A stretch of 64,000 nucleotides of DNA from Vibrio ponticus (GTDB lineage Bacteria; Pseudomonadota; Gammaproteobacteria; Enterobacterales; Vibrionaceae): contig NZ_AP019658.1 of assembly GCF_009938225.1 (NCBI RefSeq), forward strand, positions 372,001-436,000. Reading direction: 5' to 3'. Each line of letters begins with the position of its first letter. The first letter of the stretch is position 1. A program made the translations under genes and the position numbers. Positions 40,029 to 64,000 of this stretch are shown one piece after another. Under the pieces are notes generated by a model. That model made no database searches. It was not told the DNA's origin and saw nothing but the letters and a program-made list of their open reading frames with translations.

Positions 40029-40949
40029 ATGCTGATTGGGTTAGATATTGGCGGAACTAAAATTGAAGGTGTGATTGTATCGCCTTCCAGTGGAGACGTC
40101 GTTAAACGTATTCGTGTTGATACTCCCAAGTCGGGTTATCAAGCATTTTTGTCTGCAGTAAAGTCAGTGATTGATAGTTTGATGGAGACAACCGAAGTGC
40201 AGTCTATTGGTGTGGGTTGCTGCGGTTCAATCAACCGTACTACAGGCAAGATACAAGGCGCCAATATACTTTATCTCAATGGAGAAGACTTTCTCGGTGA
40301 TTTGCGTGCGCATTATAGCCTTCCGGTCGCGTTAACCAATGATGCCAACTGTTTGGCGATATCTGAGTTTGAAACCGGTGCAGCAAAAGAGGCACTTAAT
40401 TCATGTTTGGCAGTGATCATTGGCACTGGTTGTGGTGGCGGGATCGTTATTCATGGCAACATCGTTGATGGTCAACATGGCTTGGGCGGTGAGATAGGGC
40501 ATAACCCTTTACCGGGTTATGAGCCTGAAAAGGATGGTCCGACTACTCAGTGTTACTGTGGCTCTTACAACTGCAATGAACTGTTTGTTTCTGGTACAGG
40601 CTTTGAGCGTACTTGGGCGCAGAAATATGACAAATTGTCAGCTAAAGCGATCTTTAATCGATACGCTGATGGCGACAAAGATGCCGTTGAACACGTTGAA
40701 TATTACGCTGATTGTCTCGCAAGGGTTTTAGGTTCGATCGTCAACGTAATTGATCCTGAAGTGATCGTATTAGGGGGCGGCGTTTCTAACCAATCTGCAA
40801 TCTACCCATTGGTGGAGCAAAAGCTGAAACATTATACCTTTAGTAAAAATGTCACAACTCCAGTTAAACAAGCACTGCATGGCGATTCAAGCGGCGTGCT
40901 AGGTGCCGCTTACCTGCCCGTTATGAGTGGTTTGGTTCAGTTAGGGTAA
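40029..40949 (+). CDS. ROK family sugar kinase, probable N-acetylhexosamine kinase
   Basis: 306 residues. ATP phosphate-1 motif GLDIGGTKIEG (4-14), catalytic base Asp105 in LTNDANCLA, then the ROK zinc site made of GHNPLPG (His158) and CYCGSYNC (Cys175, Cys177, Cys182). Glu155 in GGEIGH is the usual sugar-binding residue of this family. Family members phosphorylate GlcNAc, glucose, fructose or mannose. Standing directly before the polysaccharide lyase operon, it may phosphorylate the amino sugar released from glycosaminoglycans (inference). Convergent with that operon across a strong terminator. Confidence 0.88.
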   Translation: MLIGLDIGGTKIEGVIVSPSSGDVVKRIRVDTPKSGYQAFLSAVKSVIDSLMETTEVQSIGVGCCGSINRTTGKIQGANILYLNGEDFLGDLRAHYSLPVALTNDANCLAISEFETGAAKEALNSCLAVIIGTGCGGGIVIHGNIVDGQHGLGGEIGHNPLPGYEPEKDGPTTQCYCGSYNCNELFVSGTGFERTWAQKYDKLSAKAIFNRYADGDKDAVEHVEYYADCLARVLGSIVNVIDPEVIVLGGGVSNQSAIYPLVEQKLKHYTFSKNVTTPVKQALHGDSSGVLGAAYLPVMSGLVQLG

Positions 40950-40998
40950 TTTCTCCATCACCTTTAAAATCGAGCGCAAGTCAGTTTTCTAGATGATA

Positions 40999-41028
40999 AA
41001 AACCGCCTTAGTTAAGTAAGGCGGTTTT
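40999..41028. terminator. Bidirectional terminator between ROK kinase and lyase operon
   Basis: AAAACCGCCTTA / TAAGGCGGTTTT, a 12-bp perfect stem with a 6-base loop and A/T flanks that act as U-tracts in either direction. Confidence 0.92.
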
Positions 41029-41063
41029 ACTTTCAAATTGCAGTGTTAATTGGATATTGAAAA

Positions 41064-43763
41064 TTAATTTGCAGTGTTCCAACCAATCGCGATGTTTTTG
41101 TATTGGATCGTTTGCAATTTATCTCCACCAGCATCGTGACGATAAGTATCGAAGTTAGCTGTAAATTGAACATGGTCGACGTCAGATGCGTCCACTAATT
41201 GGTGGTTTACATTCTCAAATGCTTCTCCGTCAAATTTACCCGCATTAGGTTTAAAGTAAGTGACATCGTTCATTTGAAAATCGAGGGTTCCTGTACCATT
41301 GTCGCCAAACTGAAGATGTTGATTCATCTTGTACCAAGTGTTTGCATTGACATAGTTATTGCCACCGTAGTCTAACCATGACAGATCGGCGTGTGGAGGG
41401 TTAATAAATTTTGCTGAAAAACGTTTATACTTATTCGTTGCATAGCGATGATCAGATAGTAAGGTATTACCTGAATTTAGCAGAATACTCGGCAACAAAA
41501 TAACATCTTTGTTTTCGTTCGTTGCGATAGCAACGTTGAGATCGTAAGCAAAGCAAGCCCCACGTAACTTACTGTTTCCAGTAGGGAATGGAACAGCAAA
41601 GTCAGTACCATTAGCGGTAGCCATTTGACCTGTCTCAGCCGCAGCATATGTTACCTCAAGAGCGAATTCTCCGGCATTCTCGACGACGCGAATATTATCG
41701 CGACTGTTGCCAAAGGTCAGTGTTCCAGCAGGTAAGTCACCAAGTTGCTGACCGATTTTATCTAGCAAGTCTTGCCCAGTTAATCCATTAATTGATGCTA
41801 AGTCTAGCGCGCGAGATTGAGTGAATCCTTTAGTACTACAGTAATTAGCTGCTGGTGGAGTCGTTGGTTCATTGATATCATCATTCTTCCACGCAAAAGT
41901 AATGTTTTTAATTTGGACTACTTGCTCTTTCAAATCAGACTCTTTGTCCGCCGAGTGTTTCCAATGACGGTAAACTTCCATCAAAGCTGCAAGTTTGTAG
42001 TCGTGGTGAGCATCGACTTGAGTACGAGCCGTTACTGCACCGGCTTTAGCGGTCATAGCGCCTGTTTTGTAGATCATGTCTAATGAACCATCTGCAGTAG
42101 ATGCACTCCCTACGAAGTCATTTGTTTGCAGCTTTTGCTGCACCAAATGCCACAGGTTTGCGTCGATACGGATGTCTGCGCCATTTTGCTGTAGAACAGA
42201 GTTATAAAACTTGTTGTCAGTCGCATCCGTAAATCGAGTACTTAATTTGCCGTAGCGGTCAGTATTTAATTTGTAGGTAAAGCCTTCACCTGGTTGACTT
42301 GCAGAGTCTGCCACTAATGGATCGCCACTGGTAAAGCCCGGTAAGAATATATAGTCAGGTGACTTACTTGGATCGCCGTTACCAAGCGGAGTCGATAAGC
42401 GGTACAAGTAGGACATCGTTGCTTCTTTCACTTTGCCATTTGGTAGTTCAATGAGGAAGCTAAAGCCATTTTGCATTGGCTTACTTGACGAAGGTTGACC
42501 AACTGCTTGTGCGGCGATAGTGGTTTGTAATACATACTGACCTTGAATCATTTCGACGGTAAGGTTTTCTGAATCCCAATTCGAAGCGCCGTCGAATCCC
42601 CATTTTGGTGTCACTTTGAATGTGCCAGTCGTTCCTTTCGGTAGACTTTCATTAAGCTGTTGCTGAATACCTGCGACTAAGTCGCTGCCTTGCATGCCTG
42701 CTAGTGGTTCTAAATCAATTGCTTTAATATTTGGGTAACCAGCAAGATCCGGTTGATCATCCACCGGTGGTGGTAGAGCAACTTCATCGTTGTTCCAAGC
42801 GAAGCTAAGATTTTTGATTCGAACTTTTTGTTCTTGCACGGCACTTATATCATCTGCACCATGCTTGTAGTAACGGTAGACTTCGACTAGAGCTTGCAGA
42901 TTGTACGGGTGAGTATCATCAACCAAAATACGATCGGTTGTGCTGCCTGATTTAGGCGCAACCACTTCGCGATTAAAGTAGGTGGTCACAGAGCCATTGG
43001 CTTGTGCCGTATCCTGGTTAAAATCGTTTACAGTGATGTTTTGCTGAATTAAATCCCACTGACCTTGAGTTGGTTTGATGCCTTTTTCTGCATACTGCAA
43101 TTGTGCATTGGTTAAGTCACCGTTTGTTGGGTCAGCATATTTTGCATTGAGGTAGCCATAGCGATCGGTTGAGAATTTATAGGTAAATCCCGTTCCTGCG
43201 GCGGTCGGTTTATTATTCTGTACTTCAGGTGCGCCACTGGTTAAGCCTGGTAAATAGATGTAATCAGGAGACTTAGCCGCTTCACCAAAACCGAGTGGTT
43301 TCGCTAAGCTTAGCTGATAGCTCAATGTAGCTTGTTTAACTACGCCATTAGGCAGTGAGATTTTGAAACTGAATCCATTTAATTCGCTTGCAGAAGGTTT
43401 ACCCACTTTGCCTGCGGCTAAAGTGGTTTCTAATGCGTAGTAGCCATTGACGTCAACCACGCGAAGGTTGGTGTCATAACCCCACTGCGGAATGATCTCG
43501 AATTGTGCAGTTGACGAGCGTGTTAGTAAGCTATCGTTTAGTTGCTTTTCTAAACCATCAATAAGAGCTTGTCCTGTTAGTTCTTTTAGCTCCCCAAGAT
43601 CAATATTTGCGACAGTTTCGAAGTCACTAAAATCCGGTTCATAGCCACCAGCTGGTGGCGGTGGAATTTGTGGTAGAGCGTCAGGTTTGTCGCTGCTTTC
43701 GTTACCACAAGCCATTAATGATAAGCTGATGCTTACCGCTAAAAAACATCTCACAATATTCAT
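41064..43763 (-). CDS. Three-repeat lipoprotein in the lyase operon, possible PL14-like jelly-roll lyase or glycan binder
   Basis: 899 residues. Signal peptide with lipobox SLMAC (Cys19), then a Pro-rich linker. Three homologous repeats of roughly 250-300 residues follow (about 45-330, 345-640, 645-899). Each starts with an LTGQ-like helix (LKELTGQALIDGLEKQL, LAGMQGSDLVAGIQQQL, INGLTGQDLLDKIGQQL). Repeats 1 and 2 have SPDYIYLPGLTSG / SPDYIFLPGFTSG and STDRYGYLNAKY / NTDRYGKLSTRF; repeat 3 has diverged (NKDVILLPSILLNSG). The strand-rich pattern with LPG resembles jelly-roll lyases such as PL14. Last gene of the porin-PL8-PL8 operon, starting 3 bp after PL8. Function unproven; surface glycan binding or a lyase are both open. 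Confidence 0.75.
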   Translation of the reverse strand: MNIVRCFLAVSISLSLMACGNESSDKPDALPQIPPPPAGGYEPDFSDFETVANIDLGELKELTGQALIDGLEKQLNDSLLTRSSTAQFEIIPQWGYDTNLRVVDVNGYYALETTLAAGKVGKPSASELNGFSFKISLPNGVVKQATLSYQLSLAKPLGFGEAAKSPDYIYLPGLTSGAPEVQNNKPTAAGTGFTYKFSTDRYGYLNAKYADPTNGDLTNAQLQYAEKGIKPTQGQWDLIQQNITVNDFNQDTAQANGSVTTYFNREVVAPKSGSTTDRILVDDTHPYNLQALVEVYRYYKHGADDISAVQEQKVRIKNLSFAWNNDEVALPPPVDDQPDLAGYPNIKAIDLEPLAGMQGSDLVAGIQQQLNESLPKGTTGTFKVTPKWGFDGASNWDSENLTVEMIQGQYVLQTTIAAQAVGQPSSSKPMQNGFSFLIELPNGKVKEATMSYLYRLSTPLGNGDPSKSPDYIFLPGFTSGDPLVADSASQPGEGFTYKLNTDRYGKLSTRFTDATDNKFYNSVLQQNGADIRIDANLWHLVQQKLQTNDFVGSASTADGSLDMIYKTGAMTAKAGAVTARTQVDAHHDYKLAALMEVYRHWKHSADKESDLKEQVVQIKNITFAWKNDDINEPTTPPAANYCSTKGFTQSRALDLASINGLTGQDLLDKIGQQLGDLPAGTLTFGNSRDNIRVVENAGEFALEVTYAAAETGQMATANGTDFAVPFPTGNSKLRGACFAYDLNVAIATNENKDVILLPSILLNSGNTLLSDHRYATNKYKRFSAKFINPPHADLSWLDYGGNNYVNANTWYKMNQHLQFGDNGTGTLDFQMNDVTYFKPNAGKFDGEAFENVNHQLVDASDVDHVQFTANFDTYRHDAGGDKLQTIQYKNIAIGWNTAN

Positions 43764-43765
43764 TA

Positions 43766-46153
43766 TTATTCCTTTATAAGCGCAAATTGGTAGCTACGAC
43801 CTTGAAGATCAGTGAGGTCGATGGTGAACGAACCATCGTTATTGGTGGTGATACGGTTTTCGAGATCGCCTTTGGTGATATAGGTATCATCAAATTTGAA
43901 CTTCACTGAGAGTGAGCTACGAGTAGGGTCTGAAATAGAAACGGTTAAACTTTGATCCGAGTTGGTACGGTAGAGCATCGACATTGGGCTGAATGCTTCA
44001 ACTGCGCCAGCTTGCCCAGGTTGCCAAAAATTTAAGCCAACTAATTTAAGTTGAGTGTGCTCAACTGCATGGACATTTTCACTATTGCTCAACACATGAA
44101 TTGATGGTGCAATCGCTTCGCGATCCACAACCGATTTAGTACTATTTGGAAACAGTACATATTGGTATTGATCGCTTGAGTCGTGCTTAAGCTCAGCTTG
44201 AGTAAAGCAAGCATTGACTGCCGCATTATTGGTGCCGATCGTATTGTAGTTTCCGCTACGACACGCTTTGGTTACAGTGGCAGTCTGCGGGTTAAGTAGT
44301 AAATAACTGATTGGGTTATTTTGTCCATCCACGGTAATGTCTAAACGCTCGAGCTCACCTTCAAATGAGGCTGCCGGCTCAACGCTAATACCGTTTGCTT
44401 TCACCTGTGCAGAAGCGATAATTTTTCTGTTTTCAAGGTTAGTCAATGCCGCTGGGTTAGTGACATTACTGCCGAGAGCGACAATTTGTTCGTCAAACAT
44501 AAACCAAGACTTTTTCGCCGACAGCGTATCGTCCCAGTTGGTGAAATCGAAGCCAGCAATCCCATATTGATCAAGAGAGGTCCCGCCAGACCATTGGATT
44601 AGATCTTGACGCTTGCCATCGCCTCTTAATTGACCAGAGCAATTCTCTCTGCTTGAGTCAATCGTCGTGGTGCCAGCTAAGTGATACGGATCAACCACTG
44701 GCCAGTAATTGGTGTAATGATCCAATTGCTGGTTGTATAGATAGGTCACACCATCAGCGCTGTACCAACCCTTTAGGTTTTCACCATTGATACACTCATA
44801 GTTGCCGACGCGGTTAGAGTGCATAGCAATCGCAAAACTCCAATCCGGGCGATGGTGAACGATACGATCCATCGCCGGAAACTGTTTATGCTGACGACGA
44901 TCCGTAAGCACGTTAACCGTCGTGTCATCTGCTAGTTGTCGCGCTAACTGTTGGTTACGGAAAAATCGAGGGTTGGCATAAAAGTCAAGAAATGTATCGT
45001 TTTCAATATTGGTTTTAATTACTGATTGAAGCTGTTTTTTTACATTGCTCGGTGCCGATTCAATGAAAAATAGCATTGAGTTAAGCACTGCGTGACCAAT
45101 CTTATGATTTTGCCCAGATAAGCGAGAAACAGCACGTCCGTTGACCATATCCATCATTCGACCATCCACCAGAAATGGTGCATAGGCTTCGAGTAAGAGT
45201 GAATAGATCGCTGAGTATTGTTCTGTCTGTTCGTTCCAAGGTGCACTTGCAATTGTCCCTAGTAACAAACCTAACCCTTCTAATAGCTCATTACCGTAAC
45301 TGCCGTTGTATGGAATGTCAGTGTGTTGGATGAAGGAACCATCAGAGTAGAATCCATCCCCACTTTCTACAAAAGTTATCACGGGTTCAAGGGCATCAAC
45401 CGCGGTTTGAAAAGCGTCTTGATCATTGGCGAGCAATGCACGAACTAAGACCACCTGCACATTTTGAACGCGGTTAGCACCTGTGGATTCAAAAGGTCGA
45501 GGCATAGAAGATGCTGACGCGCCAGCGCCCTCGCTAAGGTGCGTTGGGTTTGGAACGAAGTACTCAATGGCATCAATGTAATTTGTAACCAAAGATGCTG
45601 GGAGTTCTTGATACATCAGCACAAGAATGTTGTTTGCTACACGGCTAATACCTAATTGCCAGTGCCACCAATTGCCCCATTCTTCTACGCCAACTTTATA
45701 GAAATGTTGATTTAAGATTGCCAAGCCTTCAGTGATAACATCCAGCAGCTCAACACTCTGATATAAGTCGCTTTTCGGTAACTGGTAAGCTTGAGCCATG
45801 GTAAATAGACGCTGATAGCTCTTATAGAGCTGGTCTCCAAGTTGCTTTTTGTCTTGTTCTGTTGCTGTCGCTAGGGGTAAATCTAACCAAAGTCCCGCAT
45901 TGACATTAGTGCGAGATGATTGAAATTGTTGCATCCATTGCGCAGCGTTACGGCTAATATTGGCTGTCGCTTGAGTGAGTTGATCGTCAAACGGGAGACT
46001 AGCGTCGCCAATATAGTTTGCTGCCCAATGAGCTCGAACTTCGGTGAACTTAGAGTCAGGAGCAGTGACATCCGAAGATGTCCCTGCTGAATCAGAGTTA
46101 CAACCGAGCAGGGCACTGGTAATGGTCAGTGCCAATAGCGATTGTCTGACCAT
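43766..46153 (-). CDS. Polysaccharide lyase family 8 (hyaluronate/chondroitin lyase), lipoprotein
   Basis: 795 residues with a lipoprotein signal (SALLGC, Cys18), so probably attached to the outer membrane. The (alpha/alpha) toroid is followed by beta-sandwich domains from about 380. Catalytic residues align with streptococcal hyaluronate lyase by spacing: Asn227 (STGANRV), His277 (FIQHTDIPY), Tyr286 (GSYGNEL) and Arg340 (VNGRAVSR), with distances 50, 9 and 54. NWWHWQLG near 161-168 forms the aromatic patch. It beta-eliminates GAG chains to unsaturated disaccharides. Its ATG overlaps the stop of the preceding PL8 gene (TAATG). Paralogue of that gene. Confidence 0.93.
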   Translation of the reverse strand: MVRQSLLALTITSALLGCNSDSAGTSSDVTAPDSKFTEVRAHWAANYIGDASLPFDDQLTQATANISRNAAQWMQQFQSSRTNVNAGLWLDLPLATATEQDKKQLGDQLYKSYQRLFTMAQAYQLPKSDLYQSVELLDVITEGLAILNQHFYKVGVEEWGNWWHWQLGISRVANNILVLMYQELPASLVTNYIDAIEYFVPNPTHLSEGAGASASSMPRPFESTGANRVQNVQVVLVRALLANDQDAFQTAVDALEPVITFVESGDGFYSDGSFIQHTDIPYNGSYGNELLEGLGLLLGTIASAPWNEQTEQYSAIYSLLLEAYAPFLVDGRMMDMVNGRAVSRLSGQNHKIGHAVLNSMLFFIESAPSNVKKQLQSVIKTNIENDTFLDFYANPRFFRNQQLARQLADDTTVNVLTDRRQHKQFPAMDRIVHHRPDWSFAIAMHSNRVGNYECINGENLKGWYSADGVTYLYNQQLDHYTNYWPVVDPYHLAGTTTIDSSRENCSGQLRGDGKRQDLIQWSGGTSLDQYGIAGFDFTNWDDTLSAKKSWFMFDEQIVALGSNVTNPAALTNLENRKIIASAQVKANGISVEPAASFEGELERLDITVDGQNNPISYLLLNPQTATVTKACRSGNYNTIGTNNAAVNACFTQAELKHDSSDQYQYVLFPNSTKSVVDREAIAPSIHVLSNSENVHAVEHTQLKLVGLNFWQPGQAGAVEAFSPMSMLYRTNSDQSLTVSISDPTRSSLSVKFKFDDTYITKGDLENRITTNNDGSFTIDLTDLQGRSYQFALIKE

Positions 46154-48573
46154 TATTTTGCCTCACCAGAATGAATTTTCTGAATTTGGAATGAGTAGCT
46201 TGAGCCGTCTAATCCGGAGAGATCAACAGAGAAGTGACGCGAGTCTTTGAGTGATACGCGGTTTTCACCATCGACAACAATTTTGTACTGCCCTTCGAGT
46301 GAAAAATCACGATCCCACCAGCTTCGGCTAGGATCCGATACCGATACCGCAATGCTATTTTCAGTCGATTTCAAAATAATCGACATTGAGTTATCCGCAG
46401 TGATGATGCCAGCTTGAGAATCATCCCAGAAATTCGCTGCGAATAAACCGAGTCGATTGTGAGCGACAGCTTGTACCTGTGAGTTATTTGCGACAACATC
46501 GATTGGCAACTGTTTCGCCGAATCAAAGTTGTTACTTAGACTAGGCACAATAGCGTAAGCGTAACTTCCATTAGTCTCTGCAGAATGCTGAAGTGTCGCT
46601 TCGATAAAACAGCCAGTTAACTCACCTTTGTTCGTGCCGATGTCAGCCCAGTTACCTTGGCGACAAACTTTAGATACTTTAATTGGTTGCTCATCTAGAG
46701 ATAGGTATTGAACACTTGGTTTTGAGCTATCGAACTCAATACTTAGCGAAGTCAAAGGTTGTTCTACAGAGCGATTGTCTGCCAATAACTTACCATTAAA
46801 CGTCACCTTTGAGTTTTCCGGAATTTTTCGGTTTTCCAATGTGGTTACGGCATCATTTGCACTCTTGTTGCGGATATCAGCACCAAGTGCAATGATCTCA
46901 TCGTCAAACATAAACCAAGACTTTTTAGCTTCTAGGTCTTGGTTCCAACTAACGAATTGCATACCAGCAATACCATATTGCTCAAGGCTTGCACCGCCTG
47001 TCCAATCCATTGAACCTTGGCGACCATCTCGCTGTGCTGAAAGCTGACCACTGCATAAAGAACGTTCAACTTGCAGTGTGGTTGTGCCAGGTAATTTGAA
47101 CGAGTCAACTAACGGCCAGTAATTATTGTAGTGAGCCGAACCTTGATTATAGAGGTACCCCATGCCATCAGCGGTATGCCAGCCTTTTAGGTTTTCGCCA
47201 TTAATACATTCATAGTTACCAACGCGATCTGAGTGCATCGCAATACCGAAGCTCCAAGTTGGGCGGTGGTGAACAATACGATCCATTTCGGCAAATTGCG
47301 TATGAGTGCTGCGTGGTGCTTGTGGTTTGATTTGATTATCTGCAAGTAACTGCTGAGCAAGCTGATAGCTACTAAAAATAGTAGGTTGAGCAATGCCATT
47401 TTCACTGCGTTGTAGCTGACTCTTTAGGAATTCTCCGAGTTGTTGCTTATAGTTTTCTGGTGCGCCAGGTAGATATAGCAACATTGAACTCAACATGGCT
47501 TGCCCGACTTTTTGGTTTTGACCTGATATCCTTGAAATCGCTCGGCCGTTTACCATGTCCATCATCTTGCCATCGACCAATAAAGGCGCGAAAGCCTCTA
47601 AAAGTAATGGATAGATTTTTTGCAGATTAGGGTCATTGGCTTGCCAAGGCGTGTTTGCAACTAGCCCCATTAGCATGCCTAGACCTTCAACCATTACTTG
47701 TCCATATGTACCGCTGTATGGCAAATCTTTATGCTGAATAAATGAGCCGTCTTGGTAAAAACCATCACCTTCAGTTACAAATGGGATAATGCTAGATAGG
47801 GATTCAACCGCCGATTTAATTTCGTTCTCATTATTGTCGAGAATGCCTCGAATAAGTACTACCTGAGCATTATCTGTGCGGTTACCACCTGTAGATTCAA
47901 ACATCAATGGAGCAGAAGAGTAAGGTGCACCATATCCTTCACTTAAGTGTGTAGGTCGAGGAACAAAGTAGCGAGATGCATCAACGTAATTGCTAATGAT
48001 TTCTTGAGGCAGCTCATCATATAGTACTACTAACGTGTTGTTAGCTACGCGTCCAATGCCAAGTTGCCAATGCCACCAGTTGCCCCATTCAGCTGTACCA
48101 ACATGGTAAAAATTGTCATGAAGAAATGCTAGTGACTCGACGAGCATCGCAAGTAGCTGGGGATCATTTTCAAGTTCACCGCCAGGGAGTTTATACGCAC
48201 GAGCTAGCGTGAAAATACGTTGGTATGTGGCGTAAAGTTGAATACCTAGCTTTCTTTTTTGCTCGGCATTGTCGGTTTGGAGAGGAAGATCTGCCCACAA
48301 TCCATTTTCATCAATGGTCAGTTGATCCAGCCACTGTTTTGCTTGGTGGTTAATTTTGGTAATTTCGTTAGTCAATTGCTGATCAAAAGCCATTGTTTGA
48401 TCACCGAGGAAATAACTTGCCCAGCGATGACGAACAATAGAGTAAAAATCTTGGGTTGATACACGCACTGGCGCTGCATCAACATCAGTTGTTGTGTTTG
48501 CAAAAACGGGCTCAGCATGCAGTCCCGTACATCCGATCACAGCGATCAGAGCAGATAGAGATGTAGTTTTCAA
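46153..48573 (-). CDS. Polysaccharide lyase family 8 (hyaluronate/chondroitin lyase), secreted
   Basis: 806 residues. The signal region ALIAVIGCTGLHA fits a lipobox (VIGC, Cys14) as well as ordinary cleavage, so it may be lipid-anchored or periplasmic. Catalytic set: Asn231 (STGGNRT), His281 (FIQHKDLPY), Tyr290 (SGTYGQV), Arg344 (VNGRAISR), with the same 50/9/54 spacing as the streptococcal enzyme. NWWHWQLG at 165-172. C-terminal beta domains from about 400. Located between the porin gene and its paralogue. Two paralogues may divide work between chain types (hyaluronan versus sulfated chondroitin) or endo versus exo action (inference). Confidence 0.93.
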   Translation of the reverse strand: MKTTSLSALIAVIGCTGLHAEPVFANTTTDVDAAPVRVSTQDFYSIVRHRWASYFLGDQTMAFDQQLTNEITKINHQAKQWLDQLTIDENGLWADLPLQTDNAEQKRKLGIQLYATYQRIFTLARAYKLPGGELENDPQLLAMLVESLAFLHDNFYHVGTAEWGNWWHWQLGIGRVANNTLVVLYDELPQEIISNYVDASRYFVPRPTHLSEGYGAPYSSAPLMFESTGGNRTDNAQVVLIRGILDNNENEIKSAVESLSSIIPFVTEGDGFYQDGSFIQHKDLPYSGTYGQVMVEGLGMLMGLVANTPWQANDPNLQKIYPLLLEAFAPLLVDGKMMDMVNGRAISRISGQNQKVGQAMLSSMLLYLPGAPENYKQQLGEFLKSQLQRSENGIAQPTIFSSYQLAQQLLADNQIKPQAPRSTHTQFAEMDRIVHHRPTWSFGIAMHSDRVGNYECINGENLKGWHTADGMGYLYNQGSAHYNNYWPLVDSFKLPGTTTLQVERSLCSGQLSAQRDGRQGSMDWTGGASLEQYGIAGMQFVSWNQDLEAKKSWFMFDDEIIALGADIRNKSANDAVTTLENRKIPENSKVTFNGKLLADNRSVEQPLTSLSIEFDSSKPSVQYLSLDEQPIKVSKVCRQGNWADIGTNKGELTGCFIEATLQHSAETNGSYAYAIVPSLSNNFDSAKQLPIDVVANNSQVQAVAHNRLGLFAANFWDDSQAGIITADNSMSIILKSTENSIAVSVSDPSRSWWDRDFSLEGQYKIVVDGENRVSLKDSRHFSVDLSGLDGSSYSFQIQKIHSGEAK

Positions 48574-48605: not shown

Positions 48606-49547
48606 TTAGAAAATGCGTTGGATGCCAAATTTAGCGAAGAACTTATCGCGGTCAGGCAGCTCTTCACCCCAAGTGCCATGTTGGTCTTCGACTTGGTAGT
48701 AGGTTTCGTAAATAAGGTTCCATTTACCAGAAATGCCCACATTGCCGAATACGCCTGCACGTGAGTAATTGTTATCTCTTTTCAGTCCCCAACGTTCAGG
48801 ATCACTATGAGAACGATCGGTAATCTCTCGCCCTAAGCCATAGCGAATAAAAGGATTGATAGTGGCGCGTCCGATTTTTTGGCTATAAACCAAGCGGAAT
48901 TGCCAATAGTCGATATCAAAGTTGTTTTCGTAGCTATCGTATTCGGTATAGAAGTGGGGCTTGATCGATGAGCCATTCGCGAATCGATATAGCCAACCAA
49001 ATTCGGCTTCATAACCCCAATCGGTATAGTTTTGTGGCTGGGTATCACCCATGCGAATGCCTTTTGCATCTCCGATATACCAGTGTCCACTCAAAAATGC
49101 TTGGCTGTTCGAATTGAAGAAATAGTCGAATTGAGGGTAAAGACGATACTCAGTTTCGTATCTATCTATGTCATATCCGTTATATCGGACGCCGACACCT
49201 GGGCGAAAACGCCAAGCACCCTTGCGGTTCATTTGAGTGTAATGCAATTCTAAGCGATCAACTTGAGCGTTCACTTCTCCATTAGGGAAGAGCTCTTCAT
49301 TGGTGTAATACTTCTTAAATGCTCTGCCCCAAATATTCCATTCGTTGCTGGTTGGGGAATGCGAGAAGCGCACATAAGGGGTATAGGCGTTTAAACGCTC
49401 ATAGTTATATGTCGCTCCCTGATCGGTTTCATCGAAGTATTGTTCATATTCGGTACCCACTTCAACCCAAGTTCGAGCGAGTGCGGGTGAGCAAAGTATG
49501 GTGGCTGATGCACTCAGCAATGCCGCCAAACGAGTCGTGTTTTTCAT
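48606..49547 (-). CDS. Outer-membrane porin, OmpG/KdgM-like
   Basis: 313 residues. Signal peptide with cleavage after SPALA (about residue 24), then a chain of alternating amphipathic strands rich in Tyr, Trp and Arg (TWVEVGTEYEQYFDE at the start of the barrel) and a C-terminal Phe (IQRIF) as needed for BAM-mediated insertion. Length fits 14-stranded OmpG-like or the slightly smaller KdgM oligogalacturonate porins. As first gene of the lyase operon it should admit acidic oligosaccharides to the periplasm. The many Arg residues fit an anionic ligand. Exact family not settled. Confidence 0.85.
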   Translation of the reverse strand: MKNTTRLAALLSASATILCSPALARTWVEVGTEYEQYFDETDQGATYNYERLNAYTPYVRFSHSPTSNEWNIWGRAFKKYYTNEELFPNGEVNAQVDRLELHYTQMNRKGAWRFRPGVGVRYNGYDIDRYETEYRLYPQFDYFFNSNSQAFLSGHWYIGDAKGIRMGDTQPQNYTDWGYEAEFGWLYRFANGSSIKPHFYTEYDSYENNFDIDYWQFRLVYSQKIGRATINPFIRYGLGREITDRSHSDPERWGLKRDNNYSRAGVFGNVGISGKWNLIYETYYQVEDQHGTWGEELPDRDKFFAKFGIQRIF

Positions 49548-49763
49548 ATCCGTCCCTCAAATAAGGAATGAACAGGAAGAGGCTGGGAGGCCTGAACACC
49601 GCGCTGGGATTAGCGATTTTTCATTCTCTTATTTTTATTTGTTTTCATTTTCACTAGGTGGCGGATTATCTATGACAAAATTTTCACGAGCAATAGCACA
49701 TAAAAAGCGGATTTAATTATTGATAATATAATCACATATATTTATCAGAATAGGTTGTCTTGG

Positions 49764-49930: not shown

Positions 49931-50083
49931 GCAGAAACTTTAATTACGGAAAATTGTGAGTTTAGTCATGCTTAGGATAAAAAGTAATTGCTCAATAAAA
50001 AATCTTGAAAGAGAATTACTGCAAATGAAAACAAATGAAAAATCTGATTTATGTGCGTCGAAAAAGCTAGAGGGGACGCAGTA

Positions 50084-54707: not shown

Positions 54708-54774
54708 TCGCTCCTCAACTTTGGCTGGCCGCCACGAAGTTAATGGATATAGCAAAAAATTAGGATGGTTATAT

Positions 54775-55497
54775 ATGAGTAAATTAGTTTACGTAACAGC
54801 ACTTTTACTAGGTAGCAGCCTAGCAACAAATGTTTATGCTTCTGCAGACAGTGAGTATCTAATTGAGTATTCTGCTCAGTCACCAGTTATCGACGGGAAC
54901 CCAACGGATACCGCTTGGGATGATGCAAATACCTTAACCCAGTTTAGCTTTCCGTGGCGCAGTCAACTTGCACCTGCAACAGAGTTTAAAGCGCTGTGGA
55001 ACGCAGATGGTCTGTTTTTTCGCTACCGTGTAAGTGACGAAAATATTGCGATTGGTACAGACCCAAAGCGCGCCATTTTAGATTCTGACCGTGTCGAGAT
55101 GTTTTTAGCTAAAGATAAGCAGCTAACGACTTATTACACGATGGAAATTGATCCGAAGGCTAGGGTGTTTAGTGCGAAGGCTTCTTATGATTCAGAAAAC
55201 AAAAAAATTGGTCAATTAGATAGCACTTGGACATGGCCAGGATTAGAAACTCAAGCAACAATCGTTGACGGTGGATATATCGTTGAAACCAAGATTCCAT
55301 TTATGACATTGACCTCACTTGGGCTTTGGCAAGACGAGCAGCAAACCGAACTAAATTGTGCATTGATGCGCGCCGAATTCACGCAACAAGCAGACGGTAA
55401 GTTGGATATGGGCTGGATGACTTGGATAGATCCAAATACACCTAAGCCGAACTTCCATAACCCTTATACTTTTGGACTGTGTAAATTAGTGAAATAG
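54775..55497 (+). CDS. Periplasmic CBM9-like carbohydrate-binding protein
   Basis: 240 residues from ATG 54775 (AGGA site; a longer frame to 54721 is unlikely). A good signal peptide (LVYVTALLLGSSLATNVYA) is followed by a beta-sandwich with the CBM9-like pattern PVIDGNPTDTAWDDA and then FKALWNADGLFFRYRVSDE and SDRVEMFLAKD. No catalytic residues stand out. It may bind oligosaccharides in the periplasm or help deliver them to the PTS. It lies 68 bp after the hydrolase gene. Such single-domain secreted CBM9-like proteins occur in other glycan loci, but a function is not established. Confidence 0.8.
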   Translation: MSKLVYVTALLLGSSLATNVYASADSEYLIEYSAQSPVIDGNPTDTAWDDANTLTQFSFPWRSQLAPATEFKALWNADGLFFRYRVSDENIAIGTDPKRAILDSDRVEMFLAKDKQLTTYYTMEIDPKARVFSAKASYDSENKKIGQLDSTWTWPGLETQATIVDGGYIVETKIPFMTLTSLGLWQDEQQTELNCALMRAEFTQQADGKLDMGWMTWIDPNTPKPNFHNPYTFGLCKLVK

Positions 55498-55549: not shown

Positions 55550-56191
55550 ATGAAAATTGCTCTAACTATGGAAAATAGCCAAGCGGCTAAAAATGAAATT
55601 ATTCTAAAAGAACTTCAATATGTAGCTGCGCAAAGTGGCGACGAAGTATTTAACGTTGGTATGTGTGACGCAGAAGACCATCACCTAACTTACATCCACT
55701 TAGGTATTCAAACTTCTATCTTGTTGGCGGCTAAGGCGGTTGATTTTGTATTCACAGGTTGTGGTACAGGTCAGGGTGCTTTGATTGCATGTAACGCTCA
55801 TTCAAACGTGGTTTGTGGTTACGCGATAGAGCCTTCTGATGCATTCCTATTTACACAAATCAATAACGGCAACGCATTGTCATTAGCGTATGCGAAAAAC
55901 TTCGGTTGGGCAGCAGAACTGAATGTGCGTGGAATTTTTGAAAAAGTCATGATGTCTGGTTGCGAACGTGGCCAAGGCTACCCAGTTGAACGTGCGGTAC
56001 CTCAACAACAAAACGTTGCGATCCTGAATGATGTTAAACGTGCGGTTGCTAAAGATTACCTAGCAAGTTTAAAAGCGATCGATGTTGAATTAGTACGCAC
56101 AGCTTGTCGCGGTGAACGTTTCCAGAAATGTCTATTTGAAAATAGCCAAGTAGATGAAATCTCGGATTTCGTTCGTGAAATCTTGAACTAA
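55550..56191 (+). CDS. RpiB/LacA/LacB family sugar isomerase, candidate DhuI-type uronate isomerase
   Basis: 213 residues. The RpiB-type active-site loop appears as FTGCGTGQGALIACNAH with Cys71 in the position of the catalytic Cys of RpiB, and a family-type Rossmann start (MKIALTMENSQAAKN). It is longer at the C-terminus than RpiB (about 150), with a Cys-rich end (VRTACRGERFQKCLF). In streptococci an RpiB/LacAB-like isomerase, DhuI, converts the unsaturated uronate product DHU to the DhuD/KduD substrate. Here it sits between the hydrolase and KduD genes, with no KduI in view, so it probably fills that step (inference). Confidence 0.82.
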   Translation: MKIALTMENSQAAKNEIILKELQYVAAQSGDEVFNVGMCDAEDHHLTYIHLGIQTSILLAAKAVDFVFTGCGTGQGALIACNAHSNVVCGYAIEPSDAFLFTQINNGNALSLAYAKNFGWAAELNVRGIFEKVMMSGCERGQGYPVERAVPQQQNVAILNDVKRAVAKDYLASLKAIDVELVRTACRGERFQKCLFENSQVDEISDFVREILN

Positions 56192-56214: not shown

Positions 56215-56239
56215 AAGACCAATCAATTTGATTGGTCTT
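56215..56239 (+). terminator. Hairpin between isomerase and DUF2264 genes
   Basis: AAGACCAATC / GATTGGTCTT, 10-bp perfect stem with a 5-base loop, followed by TGTGTTTC. It lies 23 bp after the isomerase stop and 48 bp before the next ATG. Confidence 0.72.
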
Positions 56240-56287
56240 TGTGTTTCTATACGGTGTGCTTTTTTAGGCGCGCTATCCGGAGGCGAA

Positions 56288-57775
56288 ATGACAAAATTTA
56301 TTCAAGCATCAGAACGCCCATATATCCCATGTGAGCATCCTGATTTAAACCAGTATTTACAGCTTTTCAAACAGAACCTTATTCGTTGTAAGCTCAAGCG
56401 TCGCGATTTTGTTGATTTGGATGAGCAGATTATTGCTGTTTTTAAACAAAACACAGAGCTAAAAGTACAATGTGAATCTCTGGTTGATTATGTCGCCGAA
56501 GCTTTTGAACATTATGCGGTATGGGATTACAGTCATGCCTATTATCCTGGGGTATCAAGTCAGCAGACCGCTCGATTAGACGCTATGGAGGGCAGCAGTC
56601 GTGTGCTCCCAACGCTTGCTGCGTGGTTGCATGCCAATCCCAATACTGCTTTGAAAAGTTCGACACTAAGTGAAGCACAATTCAATTTGGTTGATTGGAT
56701 TAAGTGCGCGTTTCTTGCGGGCACCAACCCTCATCATTCTGGTTATTGGGGAAATATCGAAGACTATGATCAAAGGATCTGTGAAAGTGCTGACTTGGCA
56801 TTAGCATTATGGCTAAGTAAAGAGCAAGTATGGCAAACATTGGCTTCGGATGAGCAACAACAGATCGTTACTTGGTTTACTCAAGTCAATCATGTTGAAA
56901 CCGTGGACAATAATTGGCACCTTTTTCCACTAACGGTTCAATTGGTAATGAAAGATTTGACCGGTGAAGATCATGTTGAGCATCATCGTTACGCACGCGT
57001 GAAAGAGTTTTTTGTTGGTGATGGTTGGTTTCGCGATGGGGCAAAAGGCAATTATGATTATTACAATGCTTGGGGTTTTCACTATTCACTTTATTGGTTA
57101 GCGCAAGTTGACCCTGAGTTTGATCCACATTTTATTCGCCATAGCTTAAGAACGTTTAGCGACAAATATCGTTACTTTTTTACCCCGCAAGGCTTCCCTT
57201 TATTTGGGCGCAGTGCGTGTTATCGTTTATCTGCTACCGCCCCTTTAATTGCCACTCTTGATGTGTGTGGCGCCAATGTACCCAACGAATATCTCGGGCA
57301 GTTTAAACGCGCGTTCAAAACCAACCTCAGCTACTTTATCTCCAATGGGGCACTACAAAAAGGACGTCCGACTCAAGGCTTGTTTGCCGATGATATTCGT
57401 CTTACAGACAACTATAGTGGTCCGGCAAGCAGCTTTTGGTCTTTAAGAGCACTAAACATCGCCTTATTCTGTGGTGACAGAATTGGCTTATGGGAAGCGA
57501 AGGAGCAGCCGTTAGAAATCGAAAAAGAGAGTTTTATGTTCTCTTTAAATGGTCCCAATATGTTGGTGGTTGGGATTCAAGAAACGCAAGAAGTGAATGT
57601 GATCTTTAAGAATGATTATATTAAGGAGCAAACGCCGCAATCGAGAAAACTTGCGTCACAATCGAGACTTAAAAAGTGGCAGGAGAGGTTGGTTGGTCGT
57701 GCAGAGCGACCGAAAAACAATCTATTACGCAAAGGTGTCACAAGCTATAGTTCGAAGCTATTTCATTTCTTCTAG
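56288..57775 (+). CDS. DUF2264 protein, probable (alpha/alpha)-barrel glycan enzyme
   Basis: 495 residues from ATG 56288, which follows a clear GGAGG; the longer frame from 56228 does not. No signal peptide. Aromatic and acidic motifs typical of alpha/alpha barrel glycoside enzymes: WDYSHAYYPGV, NNWHLFPLTVQLV, YDYYNAWGFHYSLYW and GFPLFGRSACYR. The pattern fits the DUF2264 family, some members of which have been assigned to a glucuronidase family (GH154, from memory). In this locus it may remove uronate from products the GH88/GH105-type enzyme cannot treat. Function inferred. Confidence 0.8.
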   Translation: MTKFIQASERPYIPCEHPDLNQYLQLFKQNLIRCKLKRRDFVDLDEQIIAVFKQNTELKVQCESLVDYVAEAFEHYAVWDYSHAYYPGVSSQQTARLDAMEGSSRVLPTLAAWLHANPNTALKSSTLSEAQFNLVDWIKCAFLAGTNPHHSGYWGNIEDYDQRICESADLALALWLSKEQVWQTLASDEQQQIVTWFTQVNHVETVDNNWHLFPLTVQLVMKDLTGEDHVEHHRYARVKEFFVGDGWFRDGAKGNYDYYNAWGFHYSLYWLAQVDPEFDPHFIRHSLRTFSDKYRYFFTPQGFPLFGRSACYRLSATAPLIATLDVCGANVPNEYLGQFKRAFKTNLSYFISNGALQKGRPTQGLFADDIRLTDNYSGPASSFWSLRALNIALFCGDRIGLWEAKEQPLEIEKESFMFSLNGPNMLVVGIQETQEVNVIFKNDYIKEQTPQSRKLASQSRLKKWQERLVGRAERPKNNLLRKGVTSYSSKLFHFF

Positions 57776-57867: not shown

Positions 57868-58650
57868 CTACTGGTTTTCTGAGTGATAGCCTAATTGCTC
57901 TGATATCCGATTTGCGGCGGTTTGCAGTAGCTCAACATAGTAAGAAAGGCGTTCTTCATCGAAACGAATGGTTGGAAAAGAGATTGAAAGACCAGCAATC
58001 ACCTGTCCAAATCGATCATAGACAGGGGCAGCAATGCAGCGCAAGCCAGGCTCTTGTTCTTCATTATCCTGTCCATATCCCTGTTCTCTGACAAGGATCA
58101 ACTCTTCGATCAGTTGGTCGACGTTCTCCAGCGTTTTATCCGTGTGTTTGACAAAAGTAACATCGGCGAGCGCTTGCTTCACAAAATCAGTTTCACGCTC
58201 TGCCAGCAATACCTTGCCAATCGCTGTGCTGTATAGCGGATTGCGGCGTCCAATTCGAGATTGCATGCTTAGGTTATAGCCTGAATCGATTTTGTGGATA
58301 TAGATAATACCATCTTCATCCAACGCACCAAGGTGAAGAGCTTCATTGGTTTGCTCAGCGATAATGCGCATCTGTTTATCGGCAATAGCAATGAGATCGA
58401 CGTATTCCAGCGATTTCGCACCAAGCTCAAACAGTTTCAAGGTTAAGCTGTATTTATCCGCTTCACCTTCTTGAGCGACATAGCCCAACATTTTCATTGT
58501 TTGTAGGAAGCGGTATGTGGTTGCTTTAGACATCATCAAGCGTTGAGAAAGCTCAGAGACACCGATGTCTTTTTGCTCCCCAAGAGCTTGAAGAATGCTG
58601 AATACCTTCATTACCGAAGAGACGGCTTCTGGCTGAGTGGCCTTTTCCAT
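57868..58650 (-). CDS. kdgR: KdgR, IclR family regulator of uronate catabolism
   Basis: 260 residues. N-terminal IclR winged helix (SSVMKVFSILQALGEQKDIG, SQRLMMSKATTYRFLQTMK) and effector domain with LHLGALDEDGIIYIHKIDS, SRIGRRNPLYSTAIGKVLLA and EQGYGQDNEEQEPGLRCIA. These stretches are nearly identical to enteric KdgR as I remember it. KdgR represses pectin/uronate genes and is released by KDG, the product of the pathway here. Divergent from kduD across two boxes matching the KdgR consensus, so it most likely controls kduD and itself. Confidence 0.93.
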   Translation of the reverse strand: MEKATQPEAVSSVMKVFSILQALGEQKDIGVSELSQRLMMSKATTYRFLQTMKMLGYVAQEGEADKYSLTLKLFELGAKSLEYVDLIAIADKQMRIIAEQTNEALHLGALDEDGIIYIHKIDSGYNLSMQSRIGRRNPLYSTAIGKVLLAERETDFVKQALADVTFVKHTDKTLENVDQLIEELILVREQGYGQDNEEQEPGLRCIAAPVYDRFGQVIAGLSISFPTIRFDEERLSYYVELLQTAANRISEQLGYHSENQ

Positions 58651-58916: not shown

Positions 58917-59678
58917 ATGATTCTTAATTCGTTCAATCTTCAAGGTAAAGTGGCTATCGTAACTGGTTGTGATACTGGTTTAGGTCAAGGTATGGCGCTG
59001 GGTTTGGCTAATGCTGGCTGTGATATTGTTGGTGTAAACATCGTTGAGCCAACGGAGACGATTGCACTTATCGAGCAAACTGGACGTAAGTTTGTTGATG
59101 TTCGTGCTAACTTGATGAAGCTTGATGATATCCCTGCAATTGTTGATCGTGCAGTGACAGAGTTTGGACGTATCGATATTCTGGTGAACAATGCAGGTAT
59201 CATTCGTCGCAACGATGCGATTGATTTCTCAGAGCAAGATTGGGATGACGTAATGAACATCAACGTTAAGTCGGTGTTCTTCCTATCTCAAGCAGTGGCA
59301 AAACAGTTTATTGCTCAAGGTCAGGGCGGTAAGATCATTAACATCGCATCAATGTTATCGTTCCAAGGTGGTATTCGCGTTCCTTCATACACCACATCAA
59401 AGAGCGGTGTGATGGGTGTTACACGTCTAATGGCGAACGAGTGGGCTAAGCACAACATTAATGTTAATGCGATTGCACCTGGCTACATGGCAACCAATAA
59501 CACGGCTGCACTGCGCGCTGATGAAACTCGCAACAAGGAAATCCTTGACCGTATTCCTGCAGGTCGCTGGGGCGAGCCTTCTGACTTGGCTGGTCCTTGT
59601 GTATTCCTAGCATCTAATGCTTCTGATTACATTAATGGTTACACCATTGCAGTGGATGGCGGTTGGTTGTCTCGTTAA
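58917..59678 (+). CDS. kduD: 2-dehydro-3-deoxy-D-gluconate 5-dehydrogenase KduD
   Basis: 253 residues, short-chain dehydrogenase fold. Nucleotide motif TGCDTGLGQGMALGL near 16-30, NNAG at 91-94, and the catalytic Ser145, Tyr158, Lys162 (IASMLSFQGG, SYTTSKSG). The end DYINGYTIAVDGGWLSR and the long central part are close to E. coli KduD from memory. It reduces the 5-keto-uronate intermediate to KDG. KduI is absent here, and the RpiB-like isomerase probably supplies the substrate. Controlled by the KdgR-type boxes upstream. TTTAAGGAA site before ATG. Confidence 0.95.
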   Translation: MILNSFNLQGKVAIVTGCDTGLGQGMALGLANAGCDIVGVNIVEPTETIALIEQTGRKFVDVRANLMKLDDIPAIVDRAVTEFGRIDILVNNAGIIRRNDAIDFSEQDWDDVMNINVKSVFFLSQAVAKQFIAQGQGGKIINIASMLSFQGGIRVPSYTTSKSGVMGVTRLMANEWAKHNINVNAIAPGYMATNNTAALRADETRNKEILDRIPAGRWGEPSDLAGPCVFLASNASDYINGYTIAVDGGWLSR

Positions 59679-59707
59679 TCGAGTAGCAATCACGAAGGTC
59701 CATAAAG

Positions 59708-60247: not shown

Positions 60248-60295
60248 ATTTGAACAGTTGTCTGTCACTTTTTCGAGTTCGAAGCGTGTTAAGAA

Positions 60296-60332: not shown

Positions 60333-60343
60333 GTTTAATACTG

Positions 60344-61906: not shown

Positions 61907-62139
61907 GTTTAAACGTTTGCATAAGTTGTAATTGCGACAAAGATCGCTTTTAGACACTAGCAATGTGTGTACTATCCGCGCCGCGTCGGATTGGGCTAAT
62001 GGATGCTCGGCTCAATTTGGTAAAGTGAATAAAATGTAACTAAATCGGATGGTTACCTATTCTTTGCTATTCCAGACCACTCTCTACACAGCAATACCCA
62101 ACAGAAATCGAGCTATGAGACTGTCTTGGGTGGTTTTTT
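61907..62139 (+). ncRNA. Possible small transcript or leader with PurR-like box and terminator
   Basis: In the 670-bp gap 61577-62246: a LacI/PurR-like box GTTTAAACGTTTGC at 61907-61920 (revcomp GCAAACGTTT fits the PurR core), a TACTAT -10-like element near 61971 and a terminator at 62096-62139 (ACCCAA...CAG / CTG...TTGGGT then TTTTTT). Together they would define an RNA of about 150 bases ending before the maturase gene. No frame longer than a few codons is inside. Elements seen by eye; a real transcript is not shown. Confidence 0.35.
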
Positions 62140-62246
62140 GCTATCCAAAATCCGCTGCTGTGTTAAGCATTATTACGCCGCCGTGCATTGAGTTAAGGCG
62201 GTATGCATCGAGACTTATTGCTTGATGCATTTTTGTGGTTTTAAAG

Positions 62247-63332
62247 ATGGTTAATAATACATTTACGGTTATGGCAAAGCCGGTTAGTGATAGATGCAAT
62301 TTGAAGTGTGAGTATTGCTTCTATTTGGGTACCAAAGATTCTTTGAGTGATAAACCGTTGGATACTATGAGCGATGAGACGCTCGAGTTATTCGTTGAAA
62401 AATACATTCAAGAATCGCCAACCCCGCAAATCAATTTCGTTTGGCAAGGTGGCGAGCCCACTTTGGCTGGACTAGAGTTTTTCCAAAAAGCCGTCGCGTT
62501 ACAAAAAAAATACGCCAATGGCAAAACCATCACTAATGCGCTGCAAACCAACGGCATGACCCTCAACAAATCGTGGGCTGAATTCTTAAAGCAACATCAA
62601 TTCTTGGTCGGTATCTCTTTAGATGGTACCCAAGCTGCGCACGACCATTATCGTATTACTACCTCAGGCAAAGGTACTTACCAAACGGTTAAAGAGAGCA
62701 TCAAACTGCTCAATCAATATGGGGTTGAGTACAACGTATTGTGCACAGTGAATAGCGCCAACTGGAATAAGGGTAAATCGGTCTACAACAACTTAAAAGA
62801 GATCGGCGTTCGCTACATTCAGTTTATTCCGATTGTCACGTACAAGAAAAACACGCCGGTGAACTTCACCGTGCCAGAGAAAGGTTTTGGTAAGTTCTTA
62901 CTTGATGTATTTAAAGAATGGGTCGAGCAAGACATCGGCTTTATGTTTGTGATGAACTTTGAAAGCACACTTTCTTACTATGCCAATGGGCACCCACTGA
63001 TCTGTTTTAACCAAAAGCAGTGCGGAGCACCGTTAGTGATTGAGTCAAATGGTGATCTTTATTCCTGCGATCACTTTGTTGAAGACAAGTATCGAGTAGG
63101 CAATATCGCGACAGACTCGTTTGCAGAGTCGATTCAAACCCCCGCTCACACCAAGTTCCTCACATTACGTAACACGACGAAATGCCAGAAGTGTGAATTT
63201 TTGCCGATGTGTAATGGCGGCTGTCCTAATCATGCCAAGCCAAATGGTGAAAATCACCTTTGCCAATCCTACAAGATGTTCTTCAAAAATACCCAAGGTG
63301 CGATGAATTACATCGTGCGCAATATCCTCTGA
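62247..63332 (+). CDS. Anaerobic sulfatase maturase (radical SAM, SPASM)
   Basis: 361 residues from ATG 62247; an upstream GTG at 62235 adds four residues. Radical-SAM cluster CNLKCEYC (Cys17, Cys21, Cys24), GGEPTL near 72, and C-terminal SPASM clusters with CGAPLVIESNGDLYSCDHF and CQKCEFLPMCNGGCPNH. These match anSME enzymes, which turn a Cys or Ser of sulfatases to formylglycine. The sulfatase gene begins 122 bp downstream with a Cys-type motif. It acts in the cytoplasm before the sulfatase is exported. The presence of this oxygen-independent route suits low-oxygen marine niches. Confidence 0.95.
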   Translation: MVNNTFTVMAKPVSDRCNLKCEYCFYLGTKDSLSDKPLDTMSDETLELFVEKYIQESPTPQINFVWQGGEPTLAGLEFFQKAVALQKKYANGKTITNALQTNGMTLNKSWAEFLKQHQFLVGISLDGTQAAHDHYRITTSGKGTYQTVKESIKLLNQYGVEYNVLCTVNSANWNKGKSVYNNLKEIGVRYIQFIPIVTYKKNTPVNFTVPEKGFGKFLLDVFKEWVEQDIGFMFVMNFESTLSYYANGHPLICFNQKQCGAPLVIESNGDLYSCDHFVEDKYRVGNIATDSFAESIQTPAHTKFLTLRNTTKCQKCEFLPMCNGGCPNHAKPNGENHLCQSYKMFFKNTQGAMNYIVRNIL

Positions 63333-63454
63333 GTTAGAGGGTGTCACAAGGAAAGAATAAACAGAATTCTCTACAGCTTGCTTTCGCTGCGGTGGGAGCG
63401 AGGTGTGGTGGGTAACGGATCCAAGTATTGGATTTTCTATTCGAAGGAAAAATA

Positions 63455-64000
63455 ATGAAAAAGACATTACTAGCAAGCACCATTGCAATGACTGTGATGG
63501 CCACATCAGCTTGTGCAAGCAATGCAACAACGGAAACAAAATCGGCAGACAAGCCAAACGTGGTACTTTTCTATGTCGATGACCTTGGCTATGGAGATTT
63601 GGCATCTTACGGTCACCAAATTGTTAAGACGCCAAACATTGATGCGCTTGCCGCACAAGGGATTAAATTCACCCAGTACTACGCGCCAGCACCGCTGTGT
63701 TCACCTTCACGTGCGGGTATGCTGACAGGTCGTACTCCATACCGTACAGGTATTCGTTCTTGGATCCCAGATAGCCAAAACGTACACATTGGTTGGGGTG
63801 AGCGTACGCTTGCTCACATGTTGCAAGACGAAGGCTACAACACGGCGCTGATGGGTAAAGTGCACCTAAATGGTGGCGCGCACATGGATGATCACCCACA
63901 AGCGAAAGACCTAGGTTTTGACTACTCATTTGCGATGTACGCGGGTTGGCAAAAGAATGCCAAAGTAGAAAAGCCTCGTGAAGATGGTAGCCTACGTCAT
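63455..64000 (+). CDS. S1 family sulfatase, N-terminal part (cut by window end)
   Basis: 182 codons from ATG 63455 (AAGGAA site) to the window edge; gene incomplete. Signal peptide with core LLASTIAMTVMATSA and cleavage near SACA-S. Metal-binding Asp42-Asp43 (VVLFYVDDLGYGD), then the formylglycine motif CSPSRAGMLTGR with Cys82, MGKVHLNGG further on. The Cys-type motif is a substrate for the neighbouring maturase. It probably removes sulfate from GAG oligosaccharides (GalNAc or GlcNAc sulfates) in the periplasm. Which sulfate position is cleaved cannot be said. Confidence 0.93.
   Translation, partial: MKKTLLASTIAMTVMATSACASNATTETKSADKPNVVLFYVDDLGYGDLASYGHQIVKTPNIDALAAQGIKFTQYYAPAPLCSPSRAGMLTGRTPYRTGIRSWIPDSQNVHIGWGERTLAHMLQDEGYNTALMGKVHLNGGAHMDDHPQAKDLGFDYSFAMYAGWQKNAKVEKPREDGSLRH

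Follow-up and report, generated by a model that had tools for sequence, protein, structure and literature searches.

What kind of substrate does a Gram-negative bacterium take up through a locus that joins polysaccharide lyases to a phosphotransferase system (PTS), and which parts of such a locus go beyond the systems already described? The question is raised by a stretch of Vibrio ponticus DNA (the window, that is, the whole 64 kb analysed; G000:C2:372001-436000, from a 4.8-Mb genome in three contigs), in which the 20 proteins encoded between 40029 and 64000 were scanned against Pfam and NCBIfam. We propose, with a probability of about 0.7, that the locus is a utilisation system for hyaluronan, and probably also for unsulfated chondroitin, arranged in two divergent units. 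Gene content, conservation, predicted folds and active-site residues were observed, PL8 activity, PTS import and the dehydratase are known from related systems, and on this basis we infer the substrate, the flow, the dehydratase activity here, the localisation and the regulation.

Organisation of the locus

A first-pass annotation, made from the letters alone, had described a PTS-type glycosaminoglycan (GAG) locus, and the gene content supports it. The genes that it named are all present as open frames, and their family matches are strong: two PL8 lyases (Lyase_8_N, E 6e-90 and 3e-93), PTS IIB, IIC, IID and IIA (E 4e-25 to 2e-81), hydrolase, isomerase, KdgR, KduD, maturase and sulfatase. Its statement that import is not of the TonB, TRAP or ABC type agrees with the scan, in which none of the 20 proteins between 40029 and 64000 matched such a system. 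To its list we add an 899-aa lipoprotein, a DUF2264 protein, a CBM9 protein and a DeoR-family regulator nearest to AgaR. On the left, the ROK kinase (+) is followed on the minus strand by the lipoprotein, PL8a, PL8b and a barrel protein; the middle, all on the plus strand, runs from the AgaR-like regulator through PTS IIB-IIC-IID-IIA, a GH88/105-type hydrolase, the CBM9 protein and a DhuI-family isomerase to DUF2264; on the right lie KdgR (-), KduD and YgjV (+), a DEAD-box helicase (-), and a sulfatase maturase with a sulfatase (+). The neighbourhood search proposed with that annotation showed that this order recurs in other Vibrionaceae and, in part, on the Yersinia plasmid pYE854, so the clustering goes beyond chance. 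The scans found no RNA families or tRNAs. The features are as follows.

from 40029, plus: ROK kinase
41064..43763, minus: 899-aa lipoprotein, three jelly-roll repeats; lipobox by eye
43766..46153, minus: PL8a, polysaccharide lyase 8 by family match, lipoprotein-like start; His277, Tyr286, NGRAVSR Arg and Glu458 present
46153..48573, minus: PL8b, polysaccharide lyase 8 by family match, signal-peptide-like start (TTG); His281, Tyr290, NGRAISR Arg and Glu460 present
48606..49547, minus: predicted outer-membrane channel, OmpG/CymA-like barrel of about 14 strands (structure model)
49615..49656, no strand: porin-side operator-like repeats TTTTTATTTG and TTTTCATTTT
50022..50041, no strand: regulator-side tandem, CAAATGAAAA twice
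50051..50869, plus: DeoR-family regulator nearest AgaR (158 bits, under the AgaR cut-off of 260); alternative ATG at 50084
50881..51369, plus: PTS IIB by family match; His15 present
51388..52161, plus: PTS IIC, AgaW equivalog (361 bits, cut-off 300)
52145..53035, plus: PTS IID by family match, under the AgaE cut-off
53048..53488, plus: PTS IIA, AgaF equivalog (152 bits, cut-off 130); His9 present
53667..54707, plus: GH88/105-type unsaturated-uronyl hydrolase (Glyco_hydro_88, E 8.8e-74)
54721..55497, plus: CBM9-domain protein; signal-peptide-like start at Met 54775
55550..56191, plus: DhuI-family isomerase (LacAB_rpiB 2e-15, DUF3666 1e-14; NCBIfam PRK09273, 323 bits, cut-off 137)
56228..57775, plus: DUF2264 protein, probable cytoplasmic glucuronate dehydratase (former GH154); Met at 56288
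57868..58650, minus: KdgR (471 bits, cut-off 275)
58917..59678, plus: KduD (440 bits, cut-off 339); two TTGAAACGATGTTTT repeats upstream (58745, 58798)
59708-60247, plus: YgjV-family membrane protein, directly after kduD
62235..63332, plus: anaerobic sulfatase maturase, a neighbour (465 bits, cut-off 349)
63428..64000, plus: start of a 508-aa sulfatase gene, a neighbour (E 6e-26)

The surface block

The PL8 residues of both lyases are in line with those of the assayed lyases of Vibrio alginolyticus LWW-9. When PL8b (by tblastn), the 899-aa protein and the porin were searched across 296 Vibrionaceae genomes, PL8b matched in 69, with a copy at 59% or more in six, the window's genome included; the 899-aa protein matched in that identical set of six, from three genera; and the porin matched in 19, at 59-72% in the other five of the six and at 32% or less in the remaining 13. 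Confined as they are to the same 6/296 genomes, porin, PL8b and lipoprotein travel as a set. Five of the six genomes, all but G076, have a second PL8 placed between the lipoprotein and PL8b. Vibrio qingdaonensis (L089; PL8b 56%) is a further named case. An Escherichia coli plasmid PL8 locus (L094) had no PTS within the stretch examined.

The porin named in the first-pass annotation models as an outer-membrane barrel, although it has no Pfam or NCBIfam match. The model, built from six sequences and with strands counted by eye from the DSSP string, predicts the fourteen-stranded barrel of the OmpG/CymA monomeric porins, and such a channel would take the place of the TonB-dependent entry suggested for LWW-9.

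The 899-aa protein is predicted to be of jelly-roll fold, its domains 1 and 2 modelling as the PL14/PL36 lyase fold. It has no Pfam match (the PF21294 cut-off was exceeded by P0019 and just missed by P0007), and its named homologues come from Vibrio, Photobacterium and Aliivibrio (V. furnissii 87%, P. damselae 79%). The PL14/PL36 catalytic residues were not placed via the sequence, and a profile search of PDB found none. The protein might be an active lyase for another uronate polymer, such as glucuronan or alginate, which would make the locus broader than GAGs; we find this quite improbable, since it occurs only beside PL8b (6/296 genomes) and its catalytic residues could not be mapped. Its relative in G058 (L058, L060, L063, L065; C5 36816-42092) has more repeats, in an open frame of 1762 residues, and one matched stretch of that relative holds an internal stop.

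Import and uronate steps

The import and uronate steps had been likened to the streptococcal hyaluronan cluster with its PTS, unsaturated glucuronyl hydrolase (UGL), DhuI and DhuD. The likeness stands at the level of function, and the isomerase clearly belongs to a common family, matching streptococcal DhuI gbs1892 (4u8e, 3.8e-66) as well as a 214-aa 'Ribose/Galactose Isomerase' (3ono, 4e-89). For the other parts it is weaker. The dehydrogenase is, by NCBIfam, a KduD equivalog over the cut-off, in place of DhuD. Among the hydrolase's ten PDB matches at E 0.001, namely a rhamnoglycuronyl hydrolase (4ce7, which we take to be GH105), one 'family 88' protein (5noa), YteR and GH105 proteins, none is named UGL, and BLASTP at E 0.01 found no match between the hydrolase and the GH88 protein of the Enterococcus faecalis PTS/PL8 locus. 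The PTS parts are nearest to enterobacterial ones (IIB to 3eye, IIA to E. coli Man): streptococcal gbs1890 (4tkz) was the tenth of 12 PDB matches of IIA (8.8e-11), 3p3v the fifth of nine for IIB, and IIC is 64% identical to the pYE854 protein versus 30% to that of E. faecalis. By sequence, DhuI thus appears to be the only clearly common family, and the PTS-type scheme was likely recruited separately from the streptococcal one.

YgjV also lies beside kduD in L037, L038, L105, L107 and on a V. pelagius plasmid, and it is possibly part of uronate use.

A candidate glucuronate dehydratase

The glucuronic acid dehydratase BcGDH dehydrates saturated terminal glucuronate (GlcA), letting GH88 remove it (PMC12269599). 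Ten alanine mutants of BcGDH were inactive, with the authors' caveat of a poor assay substrate (PMC12269599). We placed nine of these ten active-site residues, all but Y354, in the window's DUF2264 protein, seven by the printed alignment (N176, N177, W178, F181, Y229, R285 and Y289; the chain numbering is five lower) and E74 and R78 by their E-x3-R spacing. All nine are identical across the 16 aligned sequences (window, pYE854, E. faecalis and 13 Vibrionaceae loci). No signal peptide was seen by eye. Copies at 55% or more number 43, in 41 genomes, and 34/43 lie within 20.2 kb of a PL8 match from a hand-picked set of 61; DUF2264 is also present in the PTS/PL8 loci of pYE854 and E. faecalis. The conserved residues suggest that DUF2264 probably turns saturated GlcA ends into hydrolase substrates.

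The protein might instead be a glycoside hydrolase (a beta-glucuronidase or galactosidase), as in the first classification of GH154, and its best PDB match, 8oi4 (1.7e-14), is indeed named a beta-galactosidase, ahead of 9o4u (glucuronic acid dehydratase, 4.6e-10) and 9nwf (3.2e-9). Against this, two family members had dehydratase and no hydrolase activity (PMC12269599), and the assigned residues are kept in the window, so that we regard a hydrolase as decidedly unlikely.

In haloarchaea, GH154 is listed alongside PL8, GH88 and an ABC transporter (PMC13260240). A search that took in few subscription papers turned up no report of a GH154/DUF2264 dehydratase from a bacterial PTS-type GAG locus. 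The Gram-positive E. faecalis IDRL-9065 (L092) has a PTS/PL8/GH88 locus with DUF2264 in which the dehydratase residues are kept.

Sulfatase, maturase and a second PTS operon

The first-pass annotation had counted maturase and sulfatase in the gene set; the genes are there, but they look like neighbours. The sulfatase exceeds the window's end, and its whole gene (508 aa) lies at L003 5429-6955, within a stretch (L003 4236-7948) that continues past the helicase with maturase, sulfatase and a GGDEF gene. No maturase match was found in the stretches (28-38 kb each) around the other five porin+PL8 loci, nor in L089, and maturase with sulfatase was not seen in those five or in L105 and L106, two loci with the import operon; in L105 other genes come after the helicase, with no maturase match. 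Among the loci read, ROK reappears only in L105. Sulfatase, maturase and ROK were therefore rejected as module members.

These genes bear on whether chondroitin sulfate is the main substrate, the neighbouring sulfatase desulfating it before import. From the gene downstream of KduD it is 2.6 kb to maturase and sulfatase, the PTS subunits are of the AgaW/AgaF type, and a second type of Vibrionaceae locus combines PL8, maturase, sulfatase and PTS. Their absence from the stretches around the related loci speaks against it, as does the window operon, which has no NagA or N-acetylgalactosamine (GalNAc) genes, whereas a second operon on C1 has them; we consider chondroitin sulfate unlikely as the main substrate. 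That operon of the same genome (L104, C1:416000-435900) carries KbaZ-like and SIS-domain genes, IIB-IIC-IID-IIA (48-58%), a class-II aldolase, NagA (66%), KduI (85%), a GH88-type gene (70%) and DUF2264 (59%). It has no PL8, both PL8_N matches of the genome being in the window. Its gene content suggests an operon for chondroitin disaccharides that has a GalNAc-phosphate route of its own, and its amino-sugar genes beside hydrolase, KduI and DUF2264 fit the release of an amino sugar 6-phosphate.

Loci of the second type (L044-L047, L107) have a PTS-linked hydrolase, maturase, sulfatase and DUF2264, with NagA, KduI, KdgK and KdgA where seen.

Operator-like repeats and import-only relatives

CAAATGAAAA, a motif chosen after viewing the window, occurs there in exactly two copies, a tandem pair that precedes the regulator (50022, 50032); close variants of it stand in inverted orientation on the porin side (49632, 49642). 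In all nine further loci the corresponding region holds one to five copies, allowing one mismatch at most, where 0.14-0.29 would be expected from the locus itself; in L036 and L038 the copies are on the regulator side only. A KdgR-box scan with an ad hoc pattern gave 10 matches versus 8.0 expected. The window's repeats may resemble known AgaR and KdgR sites.

IIC at 60% or more was found in 9/296 genomes, seven of which have PL8 beside it (in G125 as a partial match in a 430-residue frame). G050 and G054, both with the import operon, gave no PL8 match by tblastn. The G050 locus (L105) has the window's neighbours (ROK 91%, DEAD 87%) and the import genes but lacks both CBM9 and the porin-PL8-PL8-lipoprotein block. 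A copy of TTTTCATTTG stands about 384 bp left of its regulator-side pair, versus 390 bp in the window, and no large divergent gene starts at its porin-side repeat, because ROK, the next of the large genes considered there, runs towards the repeat. The G054 locus (L106) retains a 38-bp stretch 84% identical to the window's porin-side repeats (E 2e-5, blastn), with another minus-strand frame about 1.1 kb from it. It would seem that G050 and G054 lost the surface block, rather than the window gaining one, a direction that we infer, because blastn disclosed no coding relic of the block in these import-only relatives.

Proposed route

Outside the cell, the lipoprotein PL8 and the secreted PL8 would cut the polymer to unsaturated disaccharides, while the triple jelly-roll lipoprotein may hold or trim chains at the surface. 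The OmpG/CymA-like channel would pass disaccharides to the periplasm, and the PTS would import them and phosphorylate their amino sugar. The GH88/105-type hydrolase would then split the imported disaccharide, and DhuI and KduD, with a KdgK encoded elsewhere, would process the uronate. DUF2264 would dehydrate saturated terminal GlcA, making saturated disaccharides hydrolase substrates as well. The AgaR-type regulator may act on both units via the CAAATGAAAA repeats, and KdgR at kduD.

Several observations weigh against this route. The nearest PDB relatives of PL8 by E-value are xanthan lyases; a TonB receptor may be encoded elsewhere in the genome; and the KdgK-like matches in the genome reach 42-43%. 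DhuI also occurs in other uronate loci and is no GAG-locus marker, since on the V. pelagius plasmid (L095) it stands with KduD, YgjV, a cupin protein, an alginate-lyase-family gene and a KdgM porin. The window's DUF2264 is distantly related to BcGDH (E 5e-10), some PL8 matches behind the 34/43 are weak and partial (E up to 8e-4), and the substrate range of the BcGDH family varies among members, the assay substrate being poor according to its authors (PMC12269599). Nor is the dehydratase obligatory, because G058 has the porin-lyase module and no DUF2264 match, and in G076 and G125 the copy is on a different contig from the porin- or PTS-linked PL8.

More tentatively, and at somewhat less than even odds, the PTS may deliver both unsaturated and saturated disaccharides, with a cytoplasmic DUF2264 converting the latter, so that products of animal hyaluronidases would be usable too; relatives without the lyase module would be scavengers, and the triple jelly-roll lipoprotein would represent a new family of proteins that cleave or bind GAGs at the surface. 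The import-only relatives make the loss of secreted 'public goods' testable.

Comparison with known systems

In S. agalactiae, PTS import of an unsaturated hyaluronan disaccharide has been shown (PMC6837340), and in Y. pseudotuberculosis a PTS and a chondroitinase have been tabulated (PMC4641178). In an mSphere survey, 41 strains were reported to have kduD-dhuI clusters, and 40 of these strains belonged to the Pseudomonadota (PMC12838403). PTS-type hyaluronan loci have been published for V. alginolyticus LWW-9, both lyases of which were assayed (PMC8222515), and for the Enterobacter asburiae CGJ001 plasmid locus PUL-HA (PMC11432990). The core scheme is thus known, and we rejected the idea of a new Gram-negative import scheme.

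Like the LWW-9 kind of locus, the window joins PL8 lyases, a mannose-family EIIABCD, an unsaturated-uronyl hydrolase and a 4-deoxy-L-threo-5-hexosulose-uronate (DHU) isomerase/dehydrogenase in one cluster. It resembles the LWW-9 polysaccharide utilisation locus (PUL; about 19.6 kb), going by the published description: both have two PL8 (one with a type I and one with a type II signal) along with a GH88-annotated hydrolase, uronate enzymes and a PTS in four parts. The LWW-9 model proposes a TonB receptor encoded elsewhere, and in its text the words 'porin' and 'DUF' do not occur (PMC8222515). PUL-HA shares PL8, GH88-annotated genes and PTS but has one PL8 and two GH88 and assumes a TonB route. 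The Y. enterocolitica pYE854 locus has a DeoR-type regulator, IIB-IIC-IID-IIA, GH88, DUF2264, a porin-like protein and PL8, and differs in having no DhuI, KduD, CBM9 or second PL8 and in the autotransporter-type pair that follows. The S. agalactiae cluster likewise imports by PTS, then hydrolyses the disaccharide, and has DhuI; it has DhuD where the window has KduD, its UGL and EIIA do not appear close by sequence, and there is no outer membrane. Bacteroides caccae PUL25, the source of BcGDH, also pairs a dehydratase with an unsaturated-uronyl hydrolase (PMC12269599), in a Bacteroides PUL with a PL35 lyase, whereas the window combines PTS import with a probably cytoplasmic dehydratase. The value of the present locus lies in the parts on which the text of the published Vibrio model is silent: a likely dedicated channel in the role given there to a TonB receptor, a surface lipoprotein with a predicted lyase fold that falls in no family, and a probable dehydratase, which would account for the use of saturated ends.

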